Source: a virus. Taken from it: a stretch of 33,411 nt of DNA. The stretch spans positions 1 through 33,411 of the IMG/VR virus record IMGVR_UViG_3300030107_003753. The stretch is one strand, 5' to 3'. The translations under genes and the position numbers were made by a program. The number at the start of each line of letters is the position of its first letter. Position 1 is the stretch's first letter. Of this stretch, positions 4,392 to 25,787 are shown piece after piece. The notes beneath the pieces are model-generated. The model was given only the letters and a program-made list of their open reading frames with translations. It searched no databases and had not been told where the DNA came from.

Positions 4392-4769
4392 TTATATGTC
4401 TTGTAGACCTGTTTCGCGGTTCAAATATTTATACTCGATTTTGTGTATATCGAAATCCTCCATGATTTTCTTACAGATGTCAGTATGATTAAATTCTCCA
4501 CAACTATACACATCAAATTGCATTAGAGCTGGGTGAGGTTCATCCCAAATATGCATAGCAATATGTGATGTTTCGATAACAGCTACGGCCGTGATACCTT
4601 TATTGCCTGGCATAGTACAATACTTAACGTAAGGACCCATAAATATTTTCATATTTATAGACTCCACAAACTCAGTCATCCATTCTTTTAATTGTTCTTC
4701 GTCGGTTGGAGGTTTTACAGCTTCGGCACGAATAATAAGATGCTTATGCACCAACAAACTGTTTTGCAT
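4392..4769 (-). CDS. speD: S-adenosylmethionine decarboxylase-like proenzyme (SpeD family)
   Basis: The 125 residues match prokaryotic AdoMet decarboxylases in length and motif spacing. These enzymes cleave themselves at a serine to make a pyruvoyl cofactor, then decarboxylate AdoMet for spermidine synthesis. The E-T-S-H-I segment gives the cleavage site at S68. H73 lies 5 residues later and C90 (SCGEF) 22 later, paralleling Ser63, His68 and Cys83 of the Thermotoga maritima enzyme. speD is a known auxiliary metabolic gene of marine cyanophages. Some phage homologues are reported to act on ornithine or arginine instead, so the substrate is open. No speE or other polyamine gene is in the window. 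It follows the endolysin gene by 4 bases, so it is probably expressed late. It converges on the helicase operon. Confidence 0.85.
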   Translation of the reverse strand: MQNSLLVHKHLIIRAEAVKPPTDEEQLKEWMTEFVESINMKIFMGPYVKYCTMPGNKGITAVAVIETSHIAMHIWDEPHPALMQFDVYSCGEFNHTDICKKIMEDFDIHKIEYKYLNRETGLQDI

Positions 4770-5494: not shown

Positions 5495-8400
5495 CTATGC
5501 TCTTTGTTTTAATCTGATTGATTGTTCCAGCGGTGATAATAACGCCGTTTCGACTGTTGTCAATCCAGTTCTTTCGTTGATTGGTGCGCTCGCTGTCTCT
5601 GTTACAGCTGTTGCGTCTGGTTGTTGCTCTAGTGGTGGTGTGTTTAATGAAGCTTCTTTAGAATTGTTTAAAAGATCTAATATTTTTTGGTTCTCATCTA
5701 TTTTAGGTTCTTTTATTTTAGGTTCTTCCTTTTTCTTTTGAAAGCTTTTAATTCTTTCTTCTTTTATTTTCATATTTTCTTCATAAGATTTATTTAAGTC
5801 TAAACCTATATGATCTATTTTTACTTGTTCTAATTCGGTAATTGGAAAAACATAATTAAAATCAGGAGGAGGAGTTCCATTTAATTCTGACTCTCTTAGA
5901 GCTGTGTCATATCTTTTTTGAAAAGCAGAACTATAATAAGTGTAAGGAGTAAATGTCTGTGTGTACATAATTGCTCCCACAAGTTGATCGTTCTTTAATC
6001 TTTTTAAAGAGTTAGCAATTTGCCAATCAGGAATGCCTAAGGTTCTAGCATCAGTTACAAACTGTAGGATCTTTTGTTGTTGAATAAAAGCTTCTTCTTG
6101 AATTTGTTCGTATTCTTTTTTAATTTGTTTAGGTCCTCTTGTTTCCCAATCTGAAGAACGATAAAAACTTTCTGATAAAGTTAGATCTCCTTTAATAGTT
6201 GAAGCAAAGTTACCAGCCTTTTGATTCATAATTTTTAACAAATCAAATTTCTGTATCTTACGACCCGTAATAGTAGAAACAAATTTTTGCCAAGCTGCAT
6301 CAGGATCTCCTCTTCCTTTGTATATATCATAAGCAATGTCCGCATATTTTTTAGCTTGAAGAATAGTTCCAGGCAACGCAGTTCGAATGATGTGTTCTAT
6401 TCCTTTGTAAACTTTTGTTCCCCATGCATCTGTAGGTGAATAAACTGAATAACCTTCCGTAGTTTTTCCATCTCTTCCCATTACATCTGCTGGTAATGCA
6501 TCAACAATAGGTTCGATTGCTAAGTTTTGTGTAAAGAAAGGTTCAGCAAACTCTTTAGCTGCTTCGTAGATACCTTTCATAACATTATTATCTATAACTT
6601 TAGTATCCTTTTCTCCTATTTGATTTAAGAAAGCTCTCATTGGTTTCTTAATATAGTCCCAGACATCTGCGTAAGAAGAATTGACAAGAGTTAATGTGTT
6701 GTTATCCAAAGGTTTGACCGCAGTGAATCTAGAGTTTCTATCATAGTCATAGGCAAAAGATCTTTTAAACGCTTCTATCATCGCTTTGTCTACACCAGTA
6801 TATTGTTCAAACACTTTATCCATTACTGCTCCAGCAGCTCCCATTGTTAATGTTAGCCCCATTAATTTTCTTAAACCATTTTGTTGGATAGCTACATTAG
6901 TAGATGAGGCTTCTCTTAAAGCTGTTCGCGCGCCCACACCTGTTAATCTTAAAATTTCTGAAGGCCATGATATGAAACTTCCAATCGGTGTCATTCTTAT
7001 AACTCTTACTGCTTCAGGTACCAAACTATATGTTGGCATTAAGTTTCGAGCATACCATGCAGCAAACTCATCAACTGCATCATCATAAGTTTTAGTTTTG
7101 TTTGTAATTTTAGAAATAGGATTATATTTTTGTCCCGTTACTAATTCTTCTTGTTTAATTAATTCTTTTTTATTTCCTTTAAAAATATTGTTTAGGTTAT
7201 TTCTATTCCATACGTAAGCATATTCTTTCCAGACGTTATCCCCTGCTTGATAAAACTGAGTAGCTCTATCCATAAATTTAGTTTTTAAAGCGCCACTCAT
7301 CCATTTATCCACCATGTTAGGATTCTCATTAAGTTTTTTAATAACTGCTAACATCTCTTGAGCTTCAATACTTTCATCTAAGTAGCCAAGTTTAATTCCT
7401 TTACCTACTCTTTCAACAAACTGTTGATTAGTAATTTTTTTACCTGCTCCAGTAATATCATTATAGATAAATTTAAAAGCATCGTCTGCTGAGCCTTTAC
7501 CACCTATCCATCCATACCCTAGTACAAACATAGGAGTAGATACAACATTTCTCATTTGGGTATCAAAACTTAATCCAGTTTTACCAAACTGAACTCCTGT
7601 TTTAAATTGCATCAACGCTCTATAGGCATTACTTTTTAATAACATATCTATCAAACCTTGACTGCCTCTTAACGCTTGGATCATTGTCGGACTTGCAAAC
7701 ACGTCACTTAAATTAGTTCTTAACATTCCAAGACCTGGTAGGTTTCCTATTGGTTCTAGTGTTGTATCCAATGTTCCTTTGTTCTTTTTAAACCACCCTT
7801 TCTTTAATCCTATTTCTAAAATTTCATCATACATTTTTTTAGTTTCAATTCCGGTAATCATTTCAGTAATAGTTTGAAGAATTTCAGACTGTGCATTTTT
7901 TTCTTCACCTAATAATTTTCTAATTGATTTAGGTAATTCTGCTCCAGTAACAATTAATTTGTCACTTTGTAAAATGTCTTTAGATATTTTGTTTAAATAT
8001 TTAATAGGATCTCCCGCATAAGCTTTAGCGTCTACAATCATATTTCTTACAGTTGCTTCGGCAAATAACCGAAGAGCTTGTTTTCTGCTTACACCTTTTT
8101 TCTTGAACACCTCAATAGCTTCTTCTTGCATTCCTTTATTTTTCCTCGAAGAAATAAGTTTAAGCATAGCTTTAACTGCTTCCTCTACCACTTCTTTAGG
8201 TGGGTTGTATAAAGGATTGGTAGTAACAGCCATAGACTTTCTCATATAACTATTGATGATAGGGATTAAAGCATTTTGAAAATCACCTTCAGGTAACATA
8301 CTTAAATATTTAGACTTAGCTGGTTTTAAATGTTTCTTTAATCCTTCTGCTGATTCTTGTAATTCTTTTGGAAGTTTATTTTTACTTATTTGATTCTTTA

Positions 8401-18529: not shown

Positions 18530-19186
18530 TCATCGTTTAAACCAAGATGGAAGTCCTAAATGAGGGCGCTTATCGAACATATTATCTTTAGCTCCCGGAG
18601 TTTTTCTATTATTATAGTGAAGAAATACTTGTACACATTCTTTACCTTTAAATTTTTCTCTCCAATGCTCTAGCTCACATCCAGAATAAACCAGCATATC
18701 TCCTGGTTTTAAATCTACTTTAAGACCTTTGGTATTATCTGATACATATCCTTCACCTGGTTTGATACCACCTTTTTTAGGATTTGGTTCTAAATATATA
18801 GGCCAATCATCACCACCAAGATTCATAGTCGTAGATATCTCACAACTAAATCTATCTTTGTGCCTTTTTAAAACATCACCTTTTTTATATATTCTTGCAT
18901 AGGTATATGCAGGATATAATTTTAATCCTGTTACCTTTTCCATTTCTGGTTGACATTTTAACATTAAGGTTTCCATAGCTATATTTGCATATTGAGAATA
19001 AGTATCTGGTATCTGTTCGTTTTGGTTTTCGTAATGACCTATAATAGTTTCAAAAGGAGAAAAATATCGAGCTGCTTTACAAGTATCATATACGTGCTTT
19101 TGCATACAAAAATAATTTCTAACAAAAGCTGCCAGGTCTTTTGATATGGCTTGACGGATAATTGTATATTTTTTCTTTTTAAACAT
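18530..19186 (-). CDS. 2OG-Fe(II) oxygenase-like protein, prolyl-hydroxylase type (218 aa)
   Basis: The double-stranded beta-helix core shows RHKDRF with H109-x-D111 as first two iron ligands. It then has PGDMLVYSGCELEH with H174 as the third, and a closing strand VQVFLHY. The 2-oxoglutarate-binding basic residue is probably K182, less clear than in the neighbour at 19813. The pattern is that of 2OG-Fe(II) dioxygenases that hydroxylate proteins or small molecules. The C-terminal 25 residues (AKDNMFDKRPHLGLPSWF is part) are extra. It is the last of four consecutive cupin-like genes and overlaps the preceding one by 8 bases. The substrate is unknown. Confidence 0.75.
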   Translation of the reverse strand: MFKKKKYTIIRQAISKDLAAFVRNYFCMQKHVYDTCKAARYFSPFETIIGHYENQNEQIPDTYSQYANIAMETLMLKCQPEMEKVTGLKLYPAYTYARIYKKGDVLKRHKDRFSCEISTTMNLGGDDWPIYLEPNPKKGGIKPGEGYVSDNTKGLKVDLKPGDMLVYSGCELEHWREKFKGKECVQVFLHYNNRKTPGAKDNMFDKRPHLGLPSWFKR

Positions 19187-19811
19187 CTTTAACTATTTCT
19201 TTTGGTACAGCTTGTATGTTCCAATGTATAAATCTAAATGGTTCTATACCAAAGTCGACTGCATATTCGTGTTCTAAATAACCTGGAAATATAACTAATG
19301 TTCCCGGTTGTGGACGTAAATGAAAGTGTTCATGACCTGGCCAGATACCTTTTAAATCTGGTTTCATTTTTAATTTTGTACATCTTGCACCAGTTTTGGG
19401 TTCGTGAAATACAGGATAAGAAGTTTTATCACTACATTTTAAAAAATAAAAACCAGATACGTGTTGGTTCCAATGTATGTGTGCTGAATGGTGACCACCA
19501 CCTTTTTTAGCAAACTCTTGTACCCACATTTCAGAGAAAAGAGTTTGATATTGTGACATATCATAACCTTGATGATCTAGATATTCCCAAGATTTTTGAC
19601 CAATGTAGTTTCTAAAATCTAAAAAATCATTGTCATTTGTAAGTGGTGTGGAGTGGTATGATCTCCCAAAATCTCCCCATTGTTTTATATGTTCTTTTTC
19701 TCTTTTACGAGCATCACTAATATATTTATTAGAAGCTTTGTTTAATGATTTTACAAACTCGGGTTTGTGTTCTGACCAAATGACCGTCTTAAAGTAATTA
19801 TTTATATACAT
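19179..19811 (-). CDS. 2OG-Fe(II) oxygenase-like protein, Oxy_5 type (210 aa)
   Basis: After an N-terminal helical half with SEMWVQEFAKKGGGHHSAH, the core shows HIHWNQHVSGFYFLK, the H-x-H ... SG-x-Y-x-L pattern of the putative 2OG-Fe(II) oxygenase group (PF13759-like). It then has LVIFPGYLEHEY with H181 as distal iron ligand, and R193 in PFRFIHWN as likely 2-oxoglutarate contact. The second ligand position reads H113-W-N115, so the usual Asp is not clear. Activity should be regarded as probable rather than certain. It overlaps the 218-aa gene by 8 bases and starts 1 base after the 211-aa gene. Similar genes occur in cyanophages and other marine phages, substrate unknown. Confidence 0.75.
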   Translation of the reverse strand: MYINNYFKTVIWSEHKPEFVKSLNKASNKYISDARKREKEHIKQWGDFGRSYHSTPLTNDNDFLDFRNYIGQKSWEYLDHQGYDMSQYQTLFSEMWVQEFAKKGGGHHSAHIHWNQHVSGFYFLKCSDKTSYPVFHEPKTGARCTKLKMKPDLKGIWPGHEHFHLRPQPGTLVIFPGYLEHEYAVDFGIEPFRFIHWNIQAVPKEIVKDV

Positions 19812-19812
19812 A

Positions 19813-20448
19813 CTATTTAAATGGATCTCCTAAATGCCATACGACAAGTGAGTATCTCGTTCCTCTCATTACTGGTTTGACTCTATGCCACAAATGTGAA
19901 GGAAATACTACGATAGAGCCTTTAGGTAATATTTCTTTTACTTGTCTTATATGTTTACTTTCATCTCTCATATGAGGATCGTAGTTTCTAAAATCAAATT
20001 CTAATTCACCACCTTTATATTCTGAACCATCTGTTAACTGACAAGTCATAGATAATTTTCTAACTTTACCATTAGTAGGATCATCTTTTTTTCTTTGATA
20101 AGGTTTATCCCAACTATCACAATGCCAATCATAGTATTGATTTAATTTATATTTTGTAAACTGACAAGCCTCAGACCAATCCCATTGAAAATTCCACCCA
20201 GCATTTTTATTCGCCATACGAACATATGGATGTAATTCTTTATATATCCAAGTCTCGCTTAACCAAACTAAATCTGATTTTCTTTTTCTTTGAATGTTTT
20301 TAACATCCTCTTTAGACAATTTTGGTTTATCAAATCCTCCAGTTCGCGCTATACTTTCTTCTTTAGATAATGCATATTTAATAACATCATCACAAAATTT
20401 AGGAGTTAACACTCCACTAAAATACCAAAAGTAATTAGATAAATTCAT
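19813..20448 (-). CDS. 2OG-Fe(II) oxygenase, PKHD/P4H-like (211 aa)
   Basis: This is the clearest enzyme of the cluster. YYDWHCDSWD gives H109-x-D111, VVFPSHLWHRV gives distal H188, and R198 in GTRYSLVVW is the expected 2-oxoglutarate anchor. Between them LSMTCQLTDGSEYKGGELEF is the conserved strand pair of PiuC/PKHD-type hydroxylases. The expected reaction is 2-oxoglutarate- and O2-dependent hydroxylation of a protein or small substrate. The N-terminal 80 residues are helical. It overlaps the upstream 167-aa gene by 14 bases and is followed after 1 base by the next oxygenase, so all are translated from one message. Confidence 0.85.
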   Translation of the reverse strand: MNLSNYFWYFSGVLTPKFCDDVIKYALSKEESIARTGGFDKPKLSKEDVKNIQRKRKSDLVWLSETWIYKELHPYVRMANKNAGWNFQWDWSEACQFTKYKLNQYYDWHCDSWDKPYQRKKDDPTNGKVRKLSMTCQLTDGSEYKGGELEFDFRNYDPHMRDESKHIRQVKEILPKGSIVVFPSHLWHRVKPVMRGTRYSLVVWHLGDPFK

Positions 20449-20938
20449 AAGTTGTAGTCAAAATAAAGTTTAAAGAATCTGGTTGAGTGTTAGTGATGTA
20501 ATACATCTGTGTAGAAGGGAACATAATAAATTTATTATTTTCTAAAGGTATGTCCCAACTTCTTCCCGCTCTTCTGTTCTGATCATAGTGTATTCGAACG
20601 CTGCAGTCTTTAACATTGACTCCATAAAGAAAAGTATAATCAGGAGAATGTCTAAGATCGACGGGATCAATATTTAATAAAGGAATAGAAATTTCTTTGG
20701 GTTTATAAGCATTACCCCACGTTTCTTTATTCACTAAAGTAAAACCGTGTTCTAAATTTATATGTTCTCGCACATATGTAGTTAGTTTGTCCCACTCTTT
20801 TGAGAATGGAAATTTAGAATCGTTAATTTGTGATGATAAAATATCGGATTGAAGTTTGTCTCGGTCTATTTCAAAACCTTTAGGCATATCTATAGTGCCG
20901 TAATGTAAATCTATTTCAGATAATACTTTCTTGTGCAT
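20435..20938 (-). CDS. Degenerate cupin-like (DSBH) protein, distal His replaced (167 aa)
   Basis: The C-terminal half has the strand order of its downstream neighbours: SVRIHYDQN with H117-x-D119, then NNKFIMFPSTQMYYIT and SLNFILTTTYEF. Aligning FPSTQMY with FPSHLWH and FPGYLEH of the next two proteins puts Y146 where the third iron ligand His should be. It also has no obvious 2-oxoglutarate Arg. It may be a non-catalytic partner or use another chemistry. The N-terminal 80 residues include FPFSKEWDKLTTYVREHIN, as in marine phage homologues (from memory). It is the first of four adjacent genes and overlaps the next by 14 bases. Confidence 0.6.
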   Translation of the reverse strand: MHKKVLSEIDLHYGTIDMPKGFEIDRDKLQSDILSSQINDSKFPFSKEWDKLTTYVREHINLEHGFTLVNKETWGNAYKPKEISIPLLNIDPVDLRHSPDYTFLYGVNVKDCSVRIHYDQNRRAGRSWDIPLENNKFIMFPSTQMYYITNTQPDSLNFILTTTYEFI

Positions 20939-20956
20939 ACCACATACCTTTTTAAT

Positions 20957-21412
20957 TTATGCTAATTGATCTGTCAAGTCCCAAGACTGGCCGGCTTCAT
21001 TCCAAACATAATACCATCTATGAGTATGGGCATCATTTTGAGATTGTTGTTCGGCTGTTAATGCAGGAGCATCACCAATTGGTGATTTCCAAGATGCAGT
21101 TGTATTATCTTTTACCCAAGATGTATAAGGTTGTTTAGACCAGAAAATGTTGTTATCTTCGTCCCAACTCATTCCTATACCTGCATAATTACCTCTTAAT
21201 GCTTTTGAGTTATCACCAGAGCTATGTTGATTACCGTGTGTATTGTAAGATGTTTGAATCCACATTTGTGCAGGCCAATTATTATGTCTCTCTAAATATT
21301 GTTGTCCTACTTTTTCATCTTCAACACCATCAGCATTTAACATATCTTTATTATCAAGTGTTAGTACTTGAATAACTTTTCCGTTCATTCCTATTTTTGC
21401 AAAGTGTGCCAT
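20957..21412 (-). CDS. Conserved marine-phage protein (151 aa)
   Basis: It starts AHFAKIGMNGKVIQVLTLDN, a pattern found at the start of a protein common in cyanophages and other marine phages. It continues with QTSYNTHGNQHSSGDNS, GNYAGIGMSWDEDNNIFW and PYTSWVKDN. A short C-terminal part is Trp- and His-rich (THRWYYVWNEAGQSWDL). No catalytic motif or membrane segment was seen. It lies directly downstream of the three Gly-rich fibre genes, so a role in fibre attachment or assembly is likely by context. The start at 21412 has an AGGAG-like sequence a few bases upstream. Confidence 0.6.
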   Translation of the reverse strand: MAHFAKIGMNGKVIQVLTLDNKDMLNADGVEDEKVGQQYLERHNNWPAQMWIQTSYNTHGNQHSSGDNSKALRGNYAGIGMSWDEDNNIFWSKQPYTSWVKDNTTASWKSPIGDAPALTAEQQSQNDAHTHRWYYVWNEAGQSWDLTDQLA

Positions 21413-21460
21413 ATGTTTCTCCTTATATATTAATTTTAAATTTGTGTAAATACATAAATA

Positions 21461-22924
21461 TTATTGATATTTATATCTTATTACTACTATTCCAGAACCA
21501 CCTGAACCACCTGCATTTGGCGGTCCTCCGTGGTCTCCACCTCCACCGCCACCTGTATTAATTTTTGCATCCATTGATGAGGGGTTGGCAGTATGTACTC
21601 CGCACCCGCCACCACCTGCTCCACCTGATCCATTGTTTGAACTTGGTGGTTGAATACTTCCTCCTCCACCACCTGAAAAATATCTTACTGAAGGGCTTGG
21701 CCCTGGAGTTCCAATTTGAGCGCTTGGAGTTGGACTTGGCGCTGGCATTGTAGTTAAATTAATTGCTGTCCCCGCACCATCTCCACCGTCTCCAGCAGAT
21801 GATCCACCTGATGCAGTTTGACCAACAGCTGTTGCTCCGCCACCTCCACCCGCAGTATAAGTTGGCTGGGCTGCAGTTCCACCATCCATACCTTGTACAG
21901 GATTTGTTGCTGGATCATTACCTGATCCTCCAACTCTTGTTGGACCAGGAGCAGGTACGGGACCCGCACCTCCGCCACCACCAGAACCTCCGCTACCTCC
22001 CGGCTGAGTAGGTCCGCACGGAATACCACCACCGCCAAAACCACCACCAGTTGATGTAATTGTGGAAAAACTTGAATCTCCACCTTTAGTACCACCAGTA
22101 TTACAACCTCCCGAACCACCTCCACCAACTACAATTGCATAAGGAGTTGCTGAAACTGGTAACGCTACAGCGGGACTTGCACCTCTTGGGGAAGCCGTAT
22201 AACATCCTGAAGCTGTTCCTGGAGATTCTCTAAATCCTCCTCCACCACCGCCGCCGCCTGCGTGAGCACCGCCACCGCCACCACCAGCTACTACCATATA
22301 ATCTACTGTACTTGAACCTGATACATTTCCTGCACAGGATACCACAAAAGTACCAGGACTAAAAAAAGTATGAATTTTATAATTTCCACACGTAGTAATA
22401 CAACCACCTGTTGCTGCTACATATGCTGGTGTAGGGGCATCACTTTGATTTCCTGAATCTGTTACAATCCATCCTTTGGTTACATCTACATAAACTAATG
22501 TTACTGCTACTCCATCTGTTGATAAAATTGCATTAGTTGCTATTCCACCAATTTTAAGGCTGTTTCTATTTAATGTACAATTAGCTGTATTAAAATTATT
22601 AGCATAATCAGCAACTCCAATTACATCCCCCGCTGCCGGGGCTGCAGGTAAAGTTACTTCTACTGCTCCTGTTGTTGCTGTGTCTACAAAATATCCAACA
22701 CCTGCTGTTGCTGTAAAATCTACTGTTTTAATTGATGATACATCCCAGTTAACTGCACCTGTTGCGCCGAAACCTGTTGCTGTTCCAGAGTTTGTTATTG
22801 TTGCACCAGATGCTATTGTTATAGTACCACCACTAGGAAGATTAAATGTATCTCCACTATCTCCTAATGTGGTTGTACCGCACGTTACTCTTGGACTAAT
22901 TTTATTTACTTTTATTTCACTCAT
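21461..22924 (-). CDS. Gly-rich tail fibre/adhesin, third paralogue (487 aa)
   Basis: Residues 1-55 form a repetitive beta segment starting SEIKVNKISPRVTCGTTTL. The beta module (SSIKTVDFTATAGVGYFVDT ... KGWIV) spans about 63-153. A linker with three cysteines leads to IHTFFSPGTFVVS and VDYMVVAGGGGGG near 184-218. Residues 213-475 are dominated by Gly runs with Pro-Ser spacers (PAPSPTPSAQIGTPGPSPSV is one). The end is GSGIVVIRYKYQ. This matches glycine-rich fibre tips thought to pack as polyglycine-II helices with host-recognition loops at their ends, as in T4-like Gp38 adhesins. It should sit at the fibre tip. It is third in the transcribed order of three tandem copies. Confidence 0.75.
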   Translation of the reverse strand: MSEIKVNKISPRVTCGTTTLGDSGDTFNLPSGGTITIASGATITNSGTATGFGATGAVNWDVSSIKTVDFTATAGVGYFVDTATTGAVEVTLPAAPAAGDVIGVADYANNFNTANCTLNRNSLKIGGIATNAILSTDGVAVTLVYVDVTKGWIVTDSGNQSDAPTPAYVAATGGCITTCGNYKIHTFFSPGTFVVSCAGNVSGSSTVDYMVVAGGGGGGAHAGGGGGGGGFRESPGTASGCYTASPRGASPAVALPVSATPYAIVVGGGGSGGCNTGGTKGGDSSFSTITSTGGGFGGGGIPCGPTQPGGSGGSGGGGGAGPVPAPGPTRVGGSGNDPATNPVQGMDGGTAAQPTYTAGGGGGATAVGQTASGGSSAGDGGDGAGTAINLTTMPAPSPTPSAQIGTPGPSPSVRYFSGGGGGSIQPPSSNNGSGGAGGGGCGVHTANPSSMDAKINTGGGGGGDHGGPPNAGGSGGSGIVVIRYKYQ

Positions 22925-22926
22925 AA

Positions 22927-24384
22927 TTATTGATACCTATACCTTATTATTACAATTCCGCTACCACCATTACTTCCACAGTTATAAGTACCACCTCCAC
23001 CACCACCAGTATTAGCGTCTCCTGTCTCCGATGGGTAAGTGGGTCCTGGAGAAGGTCCACCACCATCTACTCTTCCACCTCCACCTCCACCACCTGTTCC
23101 ACCTACACCTGCGGTTGGGTAACCATAACTTTGACCTCCACCTCCACCACCAAAATATTGTTCACAACTTGAAGGTTCACCATTAGTGGCTACGAATGTT
23201 GTTGGAAAACCACCTCCATTTCCTCCATCTCCACCTTCTGTCCAACTTCCAGACGGCGAAGGAGAACCAGAATTCAAAAATCCACCACCACCTGCAGATG
23301 ACCATTGGCCTGGATTAGGTCCAGACCCTCCGGGCTCACCTTGAGATGGAGCAGTGGGTGGAGTATTTCCACTTCCTGCTGCACCAGTACCAGGACTACC
23401 TTGGTGTCCCCCACCTCCAGAACCACCATCATTATTTCCTCCTTGTGCACCACCAGCGGATGTGATTGTTGAAAAAGTTGCATCTCCTCCAAAGCCAGCC
23501 GAACAACCCCAAGGGTTAGGAGCTGCACCGCCACCGCCAACGGCTATAGCATAGCCCTGTACTGAAACTGGTAGTTGACCAGGACCATTTCTTGGACTTG
23601 CTGGATAAGTTGTAATATCTGGAGAAGCATAAAATCTTACACCGCCGGCTCCACCACCTCCACCTCTACCAGCTCCCCCACCTGCAACAACTAAATAATC
23701 AACCACATTGTTGCTTGGAGATGAGGCTAAACCTGAAACACAAAAAGTTCCTGGGCCTGTAAATGTATGTAATCTGTAATTTCCACAACAAGTAATTGAT
23801 CCACCTGTAGCAACAAGATAACCAACACCTGTTGTTGTCTCGTCTGCATTTTGAACGTTAACCCAACCTTTTGTTGAATCTACATATACAAAAGTTGCGG
23901 CTTGCCCACTAGTGGTTAAAACTGCATCTGCTGCTATTCCACCAATTTTTTCTGAACCATTTGGTGAAATAGTAAAATTATATGTTGCAAAATTTCTTGC
24001 ATAATCTGATACAGCAACAATTGCTCCTGCTGATCCTGCCGGTAAATTCATTGTTAAAGCACTTGGTGAATTCACAAAATAACCCTCACCATTAACTGCT
24101 GTGAATGTTGTAGTCTTTGGTGTAGTTTGCCAATCAACAGAACCTGATCTACCAAAACCTGTCTGCGTTCCATTATTAGTTATAGTTGCACCAGAGGCAA
24201 TTGTAATTTGACCGCCGGATTGAACTTGTATTTCTCCACCTGATTGAACTTGTTCTGTTACTCCATTAGGAATAATAACAGTATCGCCATTAGCACCCAT
24301 AGTAATGTTAGTGCCACACTTATTGATGATGTTTGAATCATCTGAAACTTTATTTATATTATCTACTTTTATTTTACTTGTCAT
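22927..24384 (-). CDS. Gly-rich tail fibre/adhesin, second paralogue (485 aa)
   Basis: The layout is the same as its neighbours. The N-terminal beta repeats include an internal duplication, VQSGGEIQVQSGGQI near 46-60. The beta module (TTTFTAVNGEGYFVNS ... KGWVNVQ) covers about 91-178. A double-Cys linker (SITCCGNYRLHTF) and VDYLVVAGGGAG follow, and then a Gly-rich region from about 235 to 473. The end is GSGIVIIRYRYQ. The Gly region differs from the other two copies in its spacer residues, while the flanks are conserved. Start and stop lie 2 bases from neighbouring genes. Recognition of different receptors by the three copies is an inference. Confidence 0.75.
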   Translation of the reverse strand: MTSKIKVDNINKVSDDSNIINKCGTNITMGANGDTVIIPNGVTEQVQSGGEIQVQSGGQITIASGATITNNGTQTGFGRSGSVDWQTTPKTTTFTAVNGEGYFVNSPSALTMNLPAGSAGAIVAVSDYARNFATYNFTISPNGSEKIGGIAADAVLTTSGQAATFVYVDSTKGWVNVQNADETTTGVGYLVATGGSITCCGNYRLHTFTGPGTFCVSGLASSPSNNVVDYLVVAGGGAGRGGGGGAGGVRFYASPDITTYPASPRNGPGQLPVSVQGYAIAVGGGGAAPNPWGCSAGFGGDATFSTITSAGGAQGGNNDGGSGGGGHQGSPGTGAAGSGNTPPTAPSQGEPGGSGPNPGQWSSAGGGGFLNSGSPSPSGSWTEGGDGGNGGGFPTTFVATNGEPSSCEQYFGGGGGGQSYGYPTAGVGGTGGGGGGGRVDGGGPSPGPTYPSETGDANTGGGGGGTYNCGSNGGSGIVIIRYRYQ

Positions 24385-24386
24385 AA

Positions 24387-25787
24387 TTATTGAAATTTAT
24401 ACCTTATCATTATTATTCCGGAACCACCATTTGATCCAGGAGAAGCTCTACCGCCTCCGCCTCCACCGCCAGTATTAGTGTCTCCTGCAACTGGAGCCGC
24501 GCCACCTGGATAATAACCACCACTGCCGCCGCCACCTACTCCACCTGTTCCGAATGTAGGACCTGGAGATTGACCTCCGCCTCCTCCACCACCAGAAAAA
24601 TATCTTCCAGTACTTGGACCTGGAGTTCCATAAGTTGGAGCTGTAGGACCAATAAAAGCATCAGCCATTGGAGTACCATCACCACCATTACCACCAGCAC
24701 CACCTGGGGCGTCTGCACCATTAGAACTAGCTCCACCACCACCGCCACCACCATACATACCACCACCTATTCCACCATCGTTTCCTTGAGGAACCGGTGT
24801 AGGGGGAGTGTTTCCACTTCCACCTGCTGAAGGACCACCAGGACCAAAAGCACCGCCTCCGCCTGATCCACCATCTGCTCCTACTCTGATTGGAACGGCT
24901 GGATTTTCACTCCCTCCGCCTCCACCACCGGCAGAAGTTATTGTTGAAAAAATTGAATCAGATCCATTACCATCAGCTGAAGGTTGATAAGGACCAGCTG
25001 GATCAGCAGGGCCTGCACCACCTACTGTAATTGAATATGGTGTTACTGAAACAGGAGTTCCTCCAGTTGCTGGACTTGGATAATTTTGTCTATAACCACC
25101 AGCTCCACCTCCAGCAGAACCTGATCCTCCACCACCAGCTCCACCTCCTGCAACTACTAAATGTTCTACTGAATTACTACCACAAACACTACCTGCAGAT
25201 GTAACGCAAAAAGTACCTGGACCTGTAAAAATATGAGTTTTATAATCACCGCAAGTTATAATTGTTCCACCACTTGCACTTACAAAATTACTACCGATAA
25301 CATTACTTGTTGAATCTTGAATATTTTTCCAACCCTCTGTTGCATCTACATAAACAAAAGTTACTGATTGTCCTTTTGTAGCCAAAACTGCATTTGCATT
25401 TACTCCACCTATTTTTTCTGTTCCATTAGGTATAATGACTAATGCATTGTTTTGAAAAGTATTAGTATAATCTACAACTGATACAATATCACCGACACTT
25501 GCCGCTGGTAAATTCATATTAAAACCTCCAGATGAAGTATCTGCAAAATAACCTTCACCATTGGCTGCGGTAAAATTTGCTGTCTTAATACTTCCTGTTT
25601 GCCAATCTACTGTTCCGGTTCTTCCAAATCCTGATTGAGTTGCTCCTACAGCTAGTGAAACTGTTCCACCTGAACGACCTAAAGTTACTGTCGTTGCATC
25701 TACTACTGCAGTTTTACAAGCTCCACCACCAACTGTTAAAGTTGTGCCGGATTGTTGTGTTACCTGATCTACTTCTACTTTACTCAT
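24387..25787 (-). CDS. Gly-rich tail fibre/adhesin, first paralogue (466 aa)
   Basis: It is first in transcription order. The N-terminal segment (SKVEVDQVTQQSGTTLTVGG) is shorter than in the other copies. The shared beta module at about 61-155 includes FTAANGEGYFADTSSGGFN and SVTFVYVDATEGWKNIQ. A linker with TCGDYKTHIFTGPGTFCVTS follows, then VEHLVVAGGGAGGGG at about 207-220. The Gly-rich, Pro-containing domain extends to about 454, and the end is GSGIIMIRYKFQ. Its ATG overlaps the stop of the 58-aa gene (TAATG). It is likely a host-recognition fibre subunit. The GC-richer Gly codons make this region stand out from the AT-rich neighbours, which reflects composition rather than transfer. Confidence 0.75.
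   Translation of the reverse strand: MSKVEVDQVTQQSGTTLTVGGGACKTAVVDATTVTLGRSGGTVSLAVGATQSGFGRTGTVDWQTGSIKTANFTAANGEGYFADTSSGGFNMNLPAASVGDIVSVVDYTNTFQNNALVIIPNGTEKIGGVNANAVLATKGQSVTFVYVDATEGWKNIQDSTSNVIGSNFVSASGGTIITCGDYKTHIFTGPGTFCVTSAGSVCGSNSVEHLVVAGGGAGGGGSGSAGGGAGGYRQNYPSPATGGTPVSVTPYSITVGGAGPADPAGPYQPSADGNGSDSIFSTITSAGGGGGGSENPAVPIRVGADGGSGGGGAFGPGGPSAGGSGNTPPTPVPQGNDGGIGGGMYGGGGGGGASSNGADAPGGAGGNGGDGTPMADAFIGPTAPTYGTPGPSTGRYFSGGGGGGGQSPGPTFGTGGVGGGGSGGYYPGGAAPVAGDTNTGGGGGGGRASPGSNGGSGIIMIRYKFQ

Follow-up and report, generated by a model that had tools for sequence, protein, structure and literature searches.

Several settings have been described in which viruses carry oxygenases that depend on 2-oxoglutarate (2OG) and Fe(II). 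In HTVC023P-type pelagiphages, co-located oxygenases have already been reported as metabolic genes, including a ferrochelatase (PMC9599517). Paramecium bursaria Chlorella virus-1 encodes vCPH, a viral prolyl 4-hydroxylase (P4H) (Eriksson 1999, as cited in PMC9301287), and the citing paper describes the use of such viral enzymes as 'cryptic' and links it in passing to the collagen of tail fibres. Cyanophage homologues next to uvsY have been proposed as AlkB-like DNA repair enzymes (PMC2984593). Here we analyse a window of 33.4 kb (33,411 nucleotides) out of the 36.3-kb IMG/VR virus record IMGVR_UViG_3300030107_003753, in which four genes encoding double-stranded beta-helix (DSBH) proteins of 167, 211, 210, and 218 aa lie beside three genes for Gly-rich, fibre-like proteins (Table 1). 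The phage is HTVC023P-type, its closest named relatives being phage 023Pt_psg01 and Pelagibacter phage HTVC023P, and it shares phage group, genes, and gene order with the auxiliary metabolic gene (AMG) clusters of PMC9599517. There the genes are metabolic and the ferrochelatase is a true one, whereas here we find a 2OG-oxygenase fold and a tie to Gly-rich fibres. We suggest, at a probability of about one half, that the four genes are best explained as a virion-linked cassette modifying the phage's own Gly-rich receptor-binding fibres. No direct precedent for hydroxylated phage fibres, phage hydroxyproline, or Gly-rich pelagiphage fibres was found in the literature searched, which left most subscription journals outside.

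The linkage of the 211-type oxygenase to Gly-rich or collagen-like fibre genes, as compared with its uvsY-adjacent paralogue, is new here. Loci were retrieved with distant queries (the 211-type protein of cyanophage S-SM1 and the 218-type protein of Mosig), the uvsY-adjacent paralogue serving as control, and evaluable loci were scored for an open reading frame (ORF) within 6 kb whose Gly content reached 30% or more across 100 residues, a criterion that also lets in a few collagen-like Gly-X-Y proteins. Such an ORF was present in 41 of 48 diverse 211-type loci (20 of 21 after dereplication), but never near the uvsY-adjacent oxygenases, although these are 211-type paralogues (0/59; dereplicated 0/19; Fisher's exact test, P = 1e-22 raw and 3e-10 dereplicated). 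Among close relatives of the window it was found in 105 of 133 evaluable loci, and in the reverse direction 61 of 78 loci retrieved by a Gly-rich fibre hold an oxygenase within 5 kb. The 218-type is intermediate, at 28 of 52 loci (13/31 dereplicated). Thus, the expectation by which an earlier sequence-only reading of this DNA could have failed, namely oxygenase clusters occurring as often without Gly-rich fibres, is contradicted for the 211-type. PF13759 enzymes, the family of the 210-aa protein, are scattered yet enriched near fibres (10 of 26 near, 2.3 expected).

The pairing extends across phages from podovirus-like to T4-like, being seen in HTVC023P-type phages, HTVC033P, and T4-like pelagiphages and cyanophages. 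In nine phage genomes from different groups the Gly_rich_2 gene and the 211-type gene are separated by 0.2-3.4 kb; under uniform placement, seven genomes together give P = 1.1e-4. Second paralogues lie 39-89 kb away. Inversion does not break the association: in four loci (L298, L321, L325, L330) the Gly-rich gene and its neighbour of the 151-aa type are on the opposite strand and still adjoin the oxygenases. Moreover, fusions of a 218-type with a 211-type domain occur at L341 (397 aa) and L378 (364 aa). The L378 fusion has a Gly-rich gene immediately upstream, and the Gly-rich ORF on the L341 contig encodes a collagen-like Gly-X-Y protein. Collagen-like fibres of this kind, a classical substrate type for a prolyl hydroxylase, were observed near 211- or 218-type oxygenases at L341:1-531, L354/L355 (about 6459-7900), and L145.

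Judged by its residues and profile matches, the 211-aa protein belongs clearly among the 2OG-Fe(II) oxygenases and is prolyl-hydroxylase/PKHD-like. Its H109, D111, H188, and R198 (HxD...H...R) are invariant across 41 diverse sequences, and profile comparison with the PDB returned the PKHD hydroxylase 3dkq (Sbal_3634; 1e-15), PiuC (9ghl/9qn1; 2e-14), the Chlorella-virus P4H 5c5t (4e-8), and an algal P4H (1e-7). The PKHD-type hydroxylases (3dkq, PiuC) are the closest solved sequences and have the same HxD...H...R layout; they are cellular and without a link to fibre genes, whereas the 211-type is phage-borne and fibre-linked. vCPH (5c5t) is likewise virus-encoded and of P4H fold, but it comes from a eukaryotic algal virus and its activity was shown on peptides, while the 211-type belongs to a phage and a multi-gene set and its activity is putative. 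This kinship to P4H and PKHD enzymes makes the 211-aa protein the most probable prolyl hydroxylase of the cassette. The 210-aa protein matches PF13759 at 46.1 bits against a cut-off of 27. An HxD...H triad, sought across its relatives, was absent and HxH...H stands in its place, in which H111, H113, and H181 never vary and R193 hardly does; PF13759 relatives with solved structures (3bvc, 2rg4) carry the same HxH letters. The earlier claim that this protein keeps both His therefore holds, as HxH...H rather than HxD, and the DSBH core claimed for the 211- and 210-aa proteins is borne out by their PF13640 and PF13759 matches. A role in DNA repair or DNA-base modification, AlkB- or TET-like, is very improbable: AlkB-like function was proposed for the uvsY-adjacent cyanophage homologues (PMC2984593), and the 218-type shows weak profile similarity to TET-like dioxygenases (E = 0.15), but the best sequence matches of the 211-aa protein are PKHD/P4H and not AlkB, the window genes lie among virion genes, and the 211-type differs in location from the uvsY-adjacent type.

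Neither the 218-aa nor the 167-aa protein has a Pfam match, and for both the DSBH core is corroborated by confident models that resemble solved 2OG oxygenases. The 218-aa model (pLDDT 94) has P. putida (Pseudomonas putida) prolyl 4-hydroxylase as its top Foldseek match (E = 7e-9; VIA comparison: Z 15.5, root-mean-square deviation (rmsd) 2.6, 161 residues aligned), and its best VIA match is SnoN (Z 16.3, rmsd 3.5, 182 aligned). H109, D111, H174, R176, and H190 are invariant across its relatives, and H109/D111 align with the H/D pair of the 211-type; the H-x-D...H claimed for both proteins (H109/D111/H188 in the 211-aa one) is retained. A conserved Arg/Lys about 10 residues past the second His was not found in the 218-type relatives; the invariant R176 and H190 could be the 2OG-binding residues. 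On its model, the 218-aa protein is a predicted 2OG-Fe(II) oxygenase-fold enzyme. It is labelled 'ferrochelatase' in PHROGs (phrog_2954) and GenBank, an identity that we reject on its DSBH fold, invariant HxD...H, and profile results; no ferrochelatase (PF00762) appeared among the families listed at E of 1 or below for 46 members of the 218-type. The protein would no longer count among phage heme genes. Bacterial relatives of the 218-type come from four loci only, on Pelagibacteraceae and Maricaulis contigs, some of which are probably phage DNA. Marine phage proteins annotated as 'DNA endonuclease (V)' (L219:12618-13633, L215:13526-14038) also show profile matches to 2OG-oxygenase-like neighbours, and their label may be wrong in the same way as that of the ferrochelatase.

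The 167-aa model (pLDDT 88) has a DSBH fold as well (Foldseek E = 3e-6; against 2rg4 in VIA, Z 14.8, rmsd 3.0, 151 aligned). Across 46 relatives, however, neither a conserved HxD nor a distal His of the metal triad was found, and a 2OG-oxygenase fold without metal ligands points to a probable pseudoenzyme; we therefore regard it as probably a pseudo-oxygenase, and the idea of four active enzymes counted one too many. Kinship between the 167- and 210-aa proteins was not significant by profile comparison alone (probability 3%) and called for fold comparison. The DSBH proteins might instead be virion components or fibre chaperones, their enzymatic role secondary or lost, as their position inside the structural block and the lost ligands of the 167-aa protein would allow; we consider this highly unlikely, because in three of the four the putative metal ligands stay invariant among diverged relatives.

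The three upstream proteins are Gly-rich and contain Pro, as the sequence-only reading had it (24-27% Gly, 6-7% Pro); the 466-aa protein, at 27% Gly and 6.4% Pro, includes GNTPPTPVPQG. All three pass the curated cut-off of Gly_rich_2 (PF21722), at 39-45 bits against 24.3, and this family, together with a position between structural genes, suggests that they are host-binding fibres. In T4-like phages the gene of the 151-aa type (phrog_7759-type) co-occurs with the Gly-rich gene, and in one sequence of 565 aa, on the overlapping loci L149 and L172, a Gly-rich fibre carries the 151-type domain fused at its C-terminus. Given this fusion, the 151-aa protein is likely to belong to the fibre, probably as an end domain. 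Because low-complexity masking strips the Gly stretches, a tblastn search of phages with the Gly-rich fibre recovered a single record, and IMG/VR scans and PF21722 were used instead. T-even gp38 is a Gly-rich distal adhesin that binds the receptor, and that of Salmonella phage S16 is reportedly a polyglycine adhesin, in work of Dunne in 2018. The gp38 adhesins of S16 and T2 are a likely structural analogue of the Gly_rich_2 fibres. Unlike those of the cassette phages, their genomes have no PF13640 oxygenase, and the Pro content of gp38 (2.4-4.5%) is below that of the cassette-phage fibres.

If the oxygenases act on fibre prolines, the fibres of phages without them should need fewer. The median Pro content of Gly-rich regions is 7.2% near the 211-type (n = 388) and 7.35% near other oxygenases (n = 25), and 1.15% where no oxygenase is within reach (n = 13; P = 1.6e-9 against those near the 211-type). 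The comparison was supplied by a search whose seed, an oxygenase-free Gly-rich protein, is itself Pro-poor; within that same search the contrast persists (6.5% versus 1.1%, P = 6e-8). Pro is the most shifted residue (five-fold); the groups do not differ in contig GC or in how much Pro the remaining proteins on the contigs contain. Independent contrasts, on a tree made without Pro-rich columns, gave P = 1.4e-5. The oxygenase-free proteins amount to about one clade and a stray member, and thus to one or two natural experiments rather than thirteen. A whole-record search found no 211-type gene in 17 of the 18 records of the comparison group, the records being fragments. Pro content showed no correlation with distance to the 211-type gene. 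The motif NTPPxxPxQG was rejected as an oxygenase-specific mark, since Pro is still 6.98% in 133 proteins that lack it; the motif is thus not the sole signal. The Pro-rich composition of fibres near oxygenases fits prolyl hydroxylation, in a contrast drawn from few lineages. Cys was the second most shifted residue (three-fold; 1.4% near oxygenases, 0.4% without). Genomes that bear oxygenases also encode, downstream, a distinct Gly-rich protein (HTVC023P gp70 type), and it too is Pro-poor, at about 2%. At L564:7743-11135 the Gly-rich and 151-type pair occurs twice, with no oxygenase found and Pro contents of 1.1 and 1.6%.

Several observations weigh against fibre modification. A single clade accounts for most of the Pro contrast; oxygenase status changes only four times by parsimony, and two of these changes fall in records with oxygenases further off. 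L553 has a 211-type enzyme and yet 1.1% Pro, L012 has one fibre of 0.9% Pro inside the cluster, and the gp38 adhesins of oxygenase-free Tevenvirinae hold 2.4% (T2) and 4.5% (S16) Pro. As for the linkage, 18 of 31 dereplicated 218-type loci are without a nearby Gly-rich gene, PF13759 enzymes are also frequent at other sites of these genomes, and T4-like phages owe part of their synteny to inheritance, which leaves fewer independent events than the raw counts. A shared insertion hotspot in the tail-fibre region would account for the adjacency too, carrying accessory cargo whose oxygenases act as AMGs on host metabolism or another target. Such a hotspot is in keeping with the treatment of the oxygenases as colocated AMGs (PMC9599517), with the wide scatter of PF13759 enzymes in T4-like marine phages, and with Mosig, where heme oxygenase and phycocyanobilin reductase genes adjoin the cluster. 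We find it rather unlikely, however, as it accounts poorly for a close uvsY-adjacent paralogue that is never near Gly-rich genes, for a fibre Pro content that tracks oxygenase presence, and for Gly-rich, 151-type, and oxygenase genes that stay grouped through inversion and across phage groups; furthermore, the iron/heme interpretation leaned on the ferrochelatase label, and neither the fold nor the residues bear that label out.

Fibre modification could proceed as follows. Host-binding fibres would be made from the three Gly-rich proteins together with the 151-aa end protein, as their family and neighbours suggest. The 211-aa P4H/PKHD-like enzyme, with Fe(II), O2, and 2-oxoglutarate, would then hydroxylate Pro in the loops between Gly stretches, for example at the conserved NTPPxxPxQG; enzyme type and motif are in evidence, and the reaction is what we infer from them. 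Prolines are, from composition and enzyme kinship, the likeliest target. The 218- and 210-aa enzymes might hydroxylate other residues, the 218-type perhaps cooperating with the 211-type, because both domains occur fused, and the ligand-less 167-aa protein may be a non-catalytic partner. The hydroxylation of the fibres, with effects on their stability or receptor binding, that the sequence-only reading had proposed thus gains from the 211-type linkage and the Pro signature and loses in that probably not all four proteins are catalytic, while its substrate is still one that we infer. If the enzymes do modify fibres, genes counted as metabolic cargo would become virion-assembly genes, and phage host binding could hinge on enzyme-made chemistry that is invisible in genome sequence. 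The hypothesis is directly testable in cultured isolates.

In the window itself the cassette is limited to the four DSBH genes. Clusters of relatives contain, in addition, genes for flavin-dependent Trp halogenases, for NodU-type carbamoyltransferases, and for a protein resembling Asp/Asn hydroxylases, most often directly next to the oxygenases. A Trp halogenase (PF04820, E down to 3e-109) lies within the oxygenase cluster beside Gly-rich fibres at L009:6111-7595, with others in L110, L159, L161, L169, L053, L297, L303, and L310; NodU/CmcH-type carbamoyltransferases (PF02543/PF16861) abut the cluster at L078:7932-9284, L297:8358-10004, and L221:9647-11311. The uvsY control, a set about as large (777 kb), contained a single halogenase and lacked carbamoyltransferases; the counts in relatives are inflated, since most of these loci were retrieved around oxygenases. 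In characterised cases NodU/TobZ-type carbamoyltransferases and flavin halogenases have sugars or small aromatics as substrates. The cluster might therefore tailor a glycan or small molecule (a fibre sugar, a host surface polysaccharide, or a metabolite) by hydroxylation, O-carbamoylation, and halogenation, and the structural neighbours of the 218-aa model do include the antibiotic-tailoring oxygenases SnoN and SnoK. We judge this improbable, as the window cluster has no glycosyltransferase or sugar-biosynthesis gene, the 211-aa sequence is closest to protein hydroxylases, and the Pro signature would be left unexplained. With fibres as the substrate, these additional genes suggest a general plan of chemical diversification or stabilisation of the adhesin. 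It would be tempting to extend this to a movable kit for tailoring proteins, made up of several 2OG oxygenases together with a pseudo-oxygenase, a flavin-dependent halogenase, and an O-carbamoyltransferase, and shared by unrelated marine phages to diversify Gly-rich or collagen-like adhesins, with adhesin Pro kept only where the kit is present. We hold this idea tentatively and below even odds; if true, the kit would be a post-translational route to receptor-binding diversity in phages.

All four DSBH genes predicted in the window are present on the minus strand. In transcription order the 466-, 485-, and 487-aa Gly-rich proteins are followed by the 151-aa protein and then by the 167-, 211-, 210-, and 218-aa proteins, after which come a 159-aa protein, a 255-aa fibre-like protein, and a 745-aa virion structural protein. 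The four had been described as overlapping and as immediately downstream of the Gly-rich genes: the 167/211 pair overlaps by 14 bases and the 210/218 pair by 8, but the 211 and 210 genes are one base apart, and the 151-aa gene intervenes before the 167-aa gene. Gene order around the cassette is nearly identical in HTVC023P and 023Pt_psg01 and is repeated in many metagenomic loci, which argues that the cassette is not a chance reading. HTVC023P carries its Gly-rich proteins as gp59-gp62 and has a homologue of the 151-aa protein.

Table 1. Fibre-like and DSBH genes of the cassette, with positions in the window and basis of assignment
Feature	Position	Strand	Basis
Gly-rich fibre/adhesin-like protein 1, 466 aa	24387..25787	(-)	Gly_rich_2 PF21722 E 2.3e-11; phrog_2295
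Gly-rich fibre/adhesin-like protein 2, 485 aa	22927..24384	(-)	Gly_rich_2 PF21722 E 1.1e-9
Gly-rich fibre/adhesin-like protein 3, 487 aa	21461..22924	(-)	Gly_rich_2 PF21722 E 2.9e-11
151-aa fibre-associated protein	20957..21412	(-)	phrog_7759 E 2.6e-30
167-aa DSBH protein, probable pseudo-oxygenase partner	20435..20938	(-)	model; no Pfam match
211-aa 2OG-Fe(II) oxygenase, prolyl-hydroxylase/PKHD-like	19813..20448	(-)	PF13640 E 5.1e-15
210-aa putative 2OG-Fe(II) oxygenase (2OG-FeII_Oxy_5), HxH...H	19179..19811	(-)	PF13759 E 7e-12
218-aa predicted 2OG-Fe(II) oxygenase-fold enzyme, phrog_2954	18530..19186	(-)	model and invariant residues; no Pfam match

Elsewhere in the window, positions 4392-4769 (minus strand) encode a 125-aa S-adenosylmethionine decarboxylase-like protein (phrog_3125, E = 5e-20), an enzyme type of polyamine synthesis; in this small phage its gene adjoins an M15-type endolysin gene.

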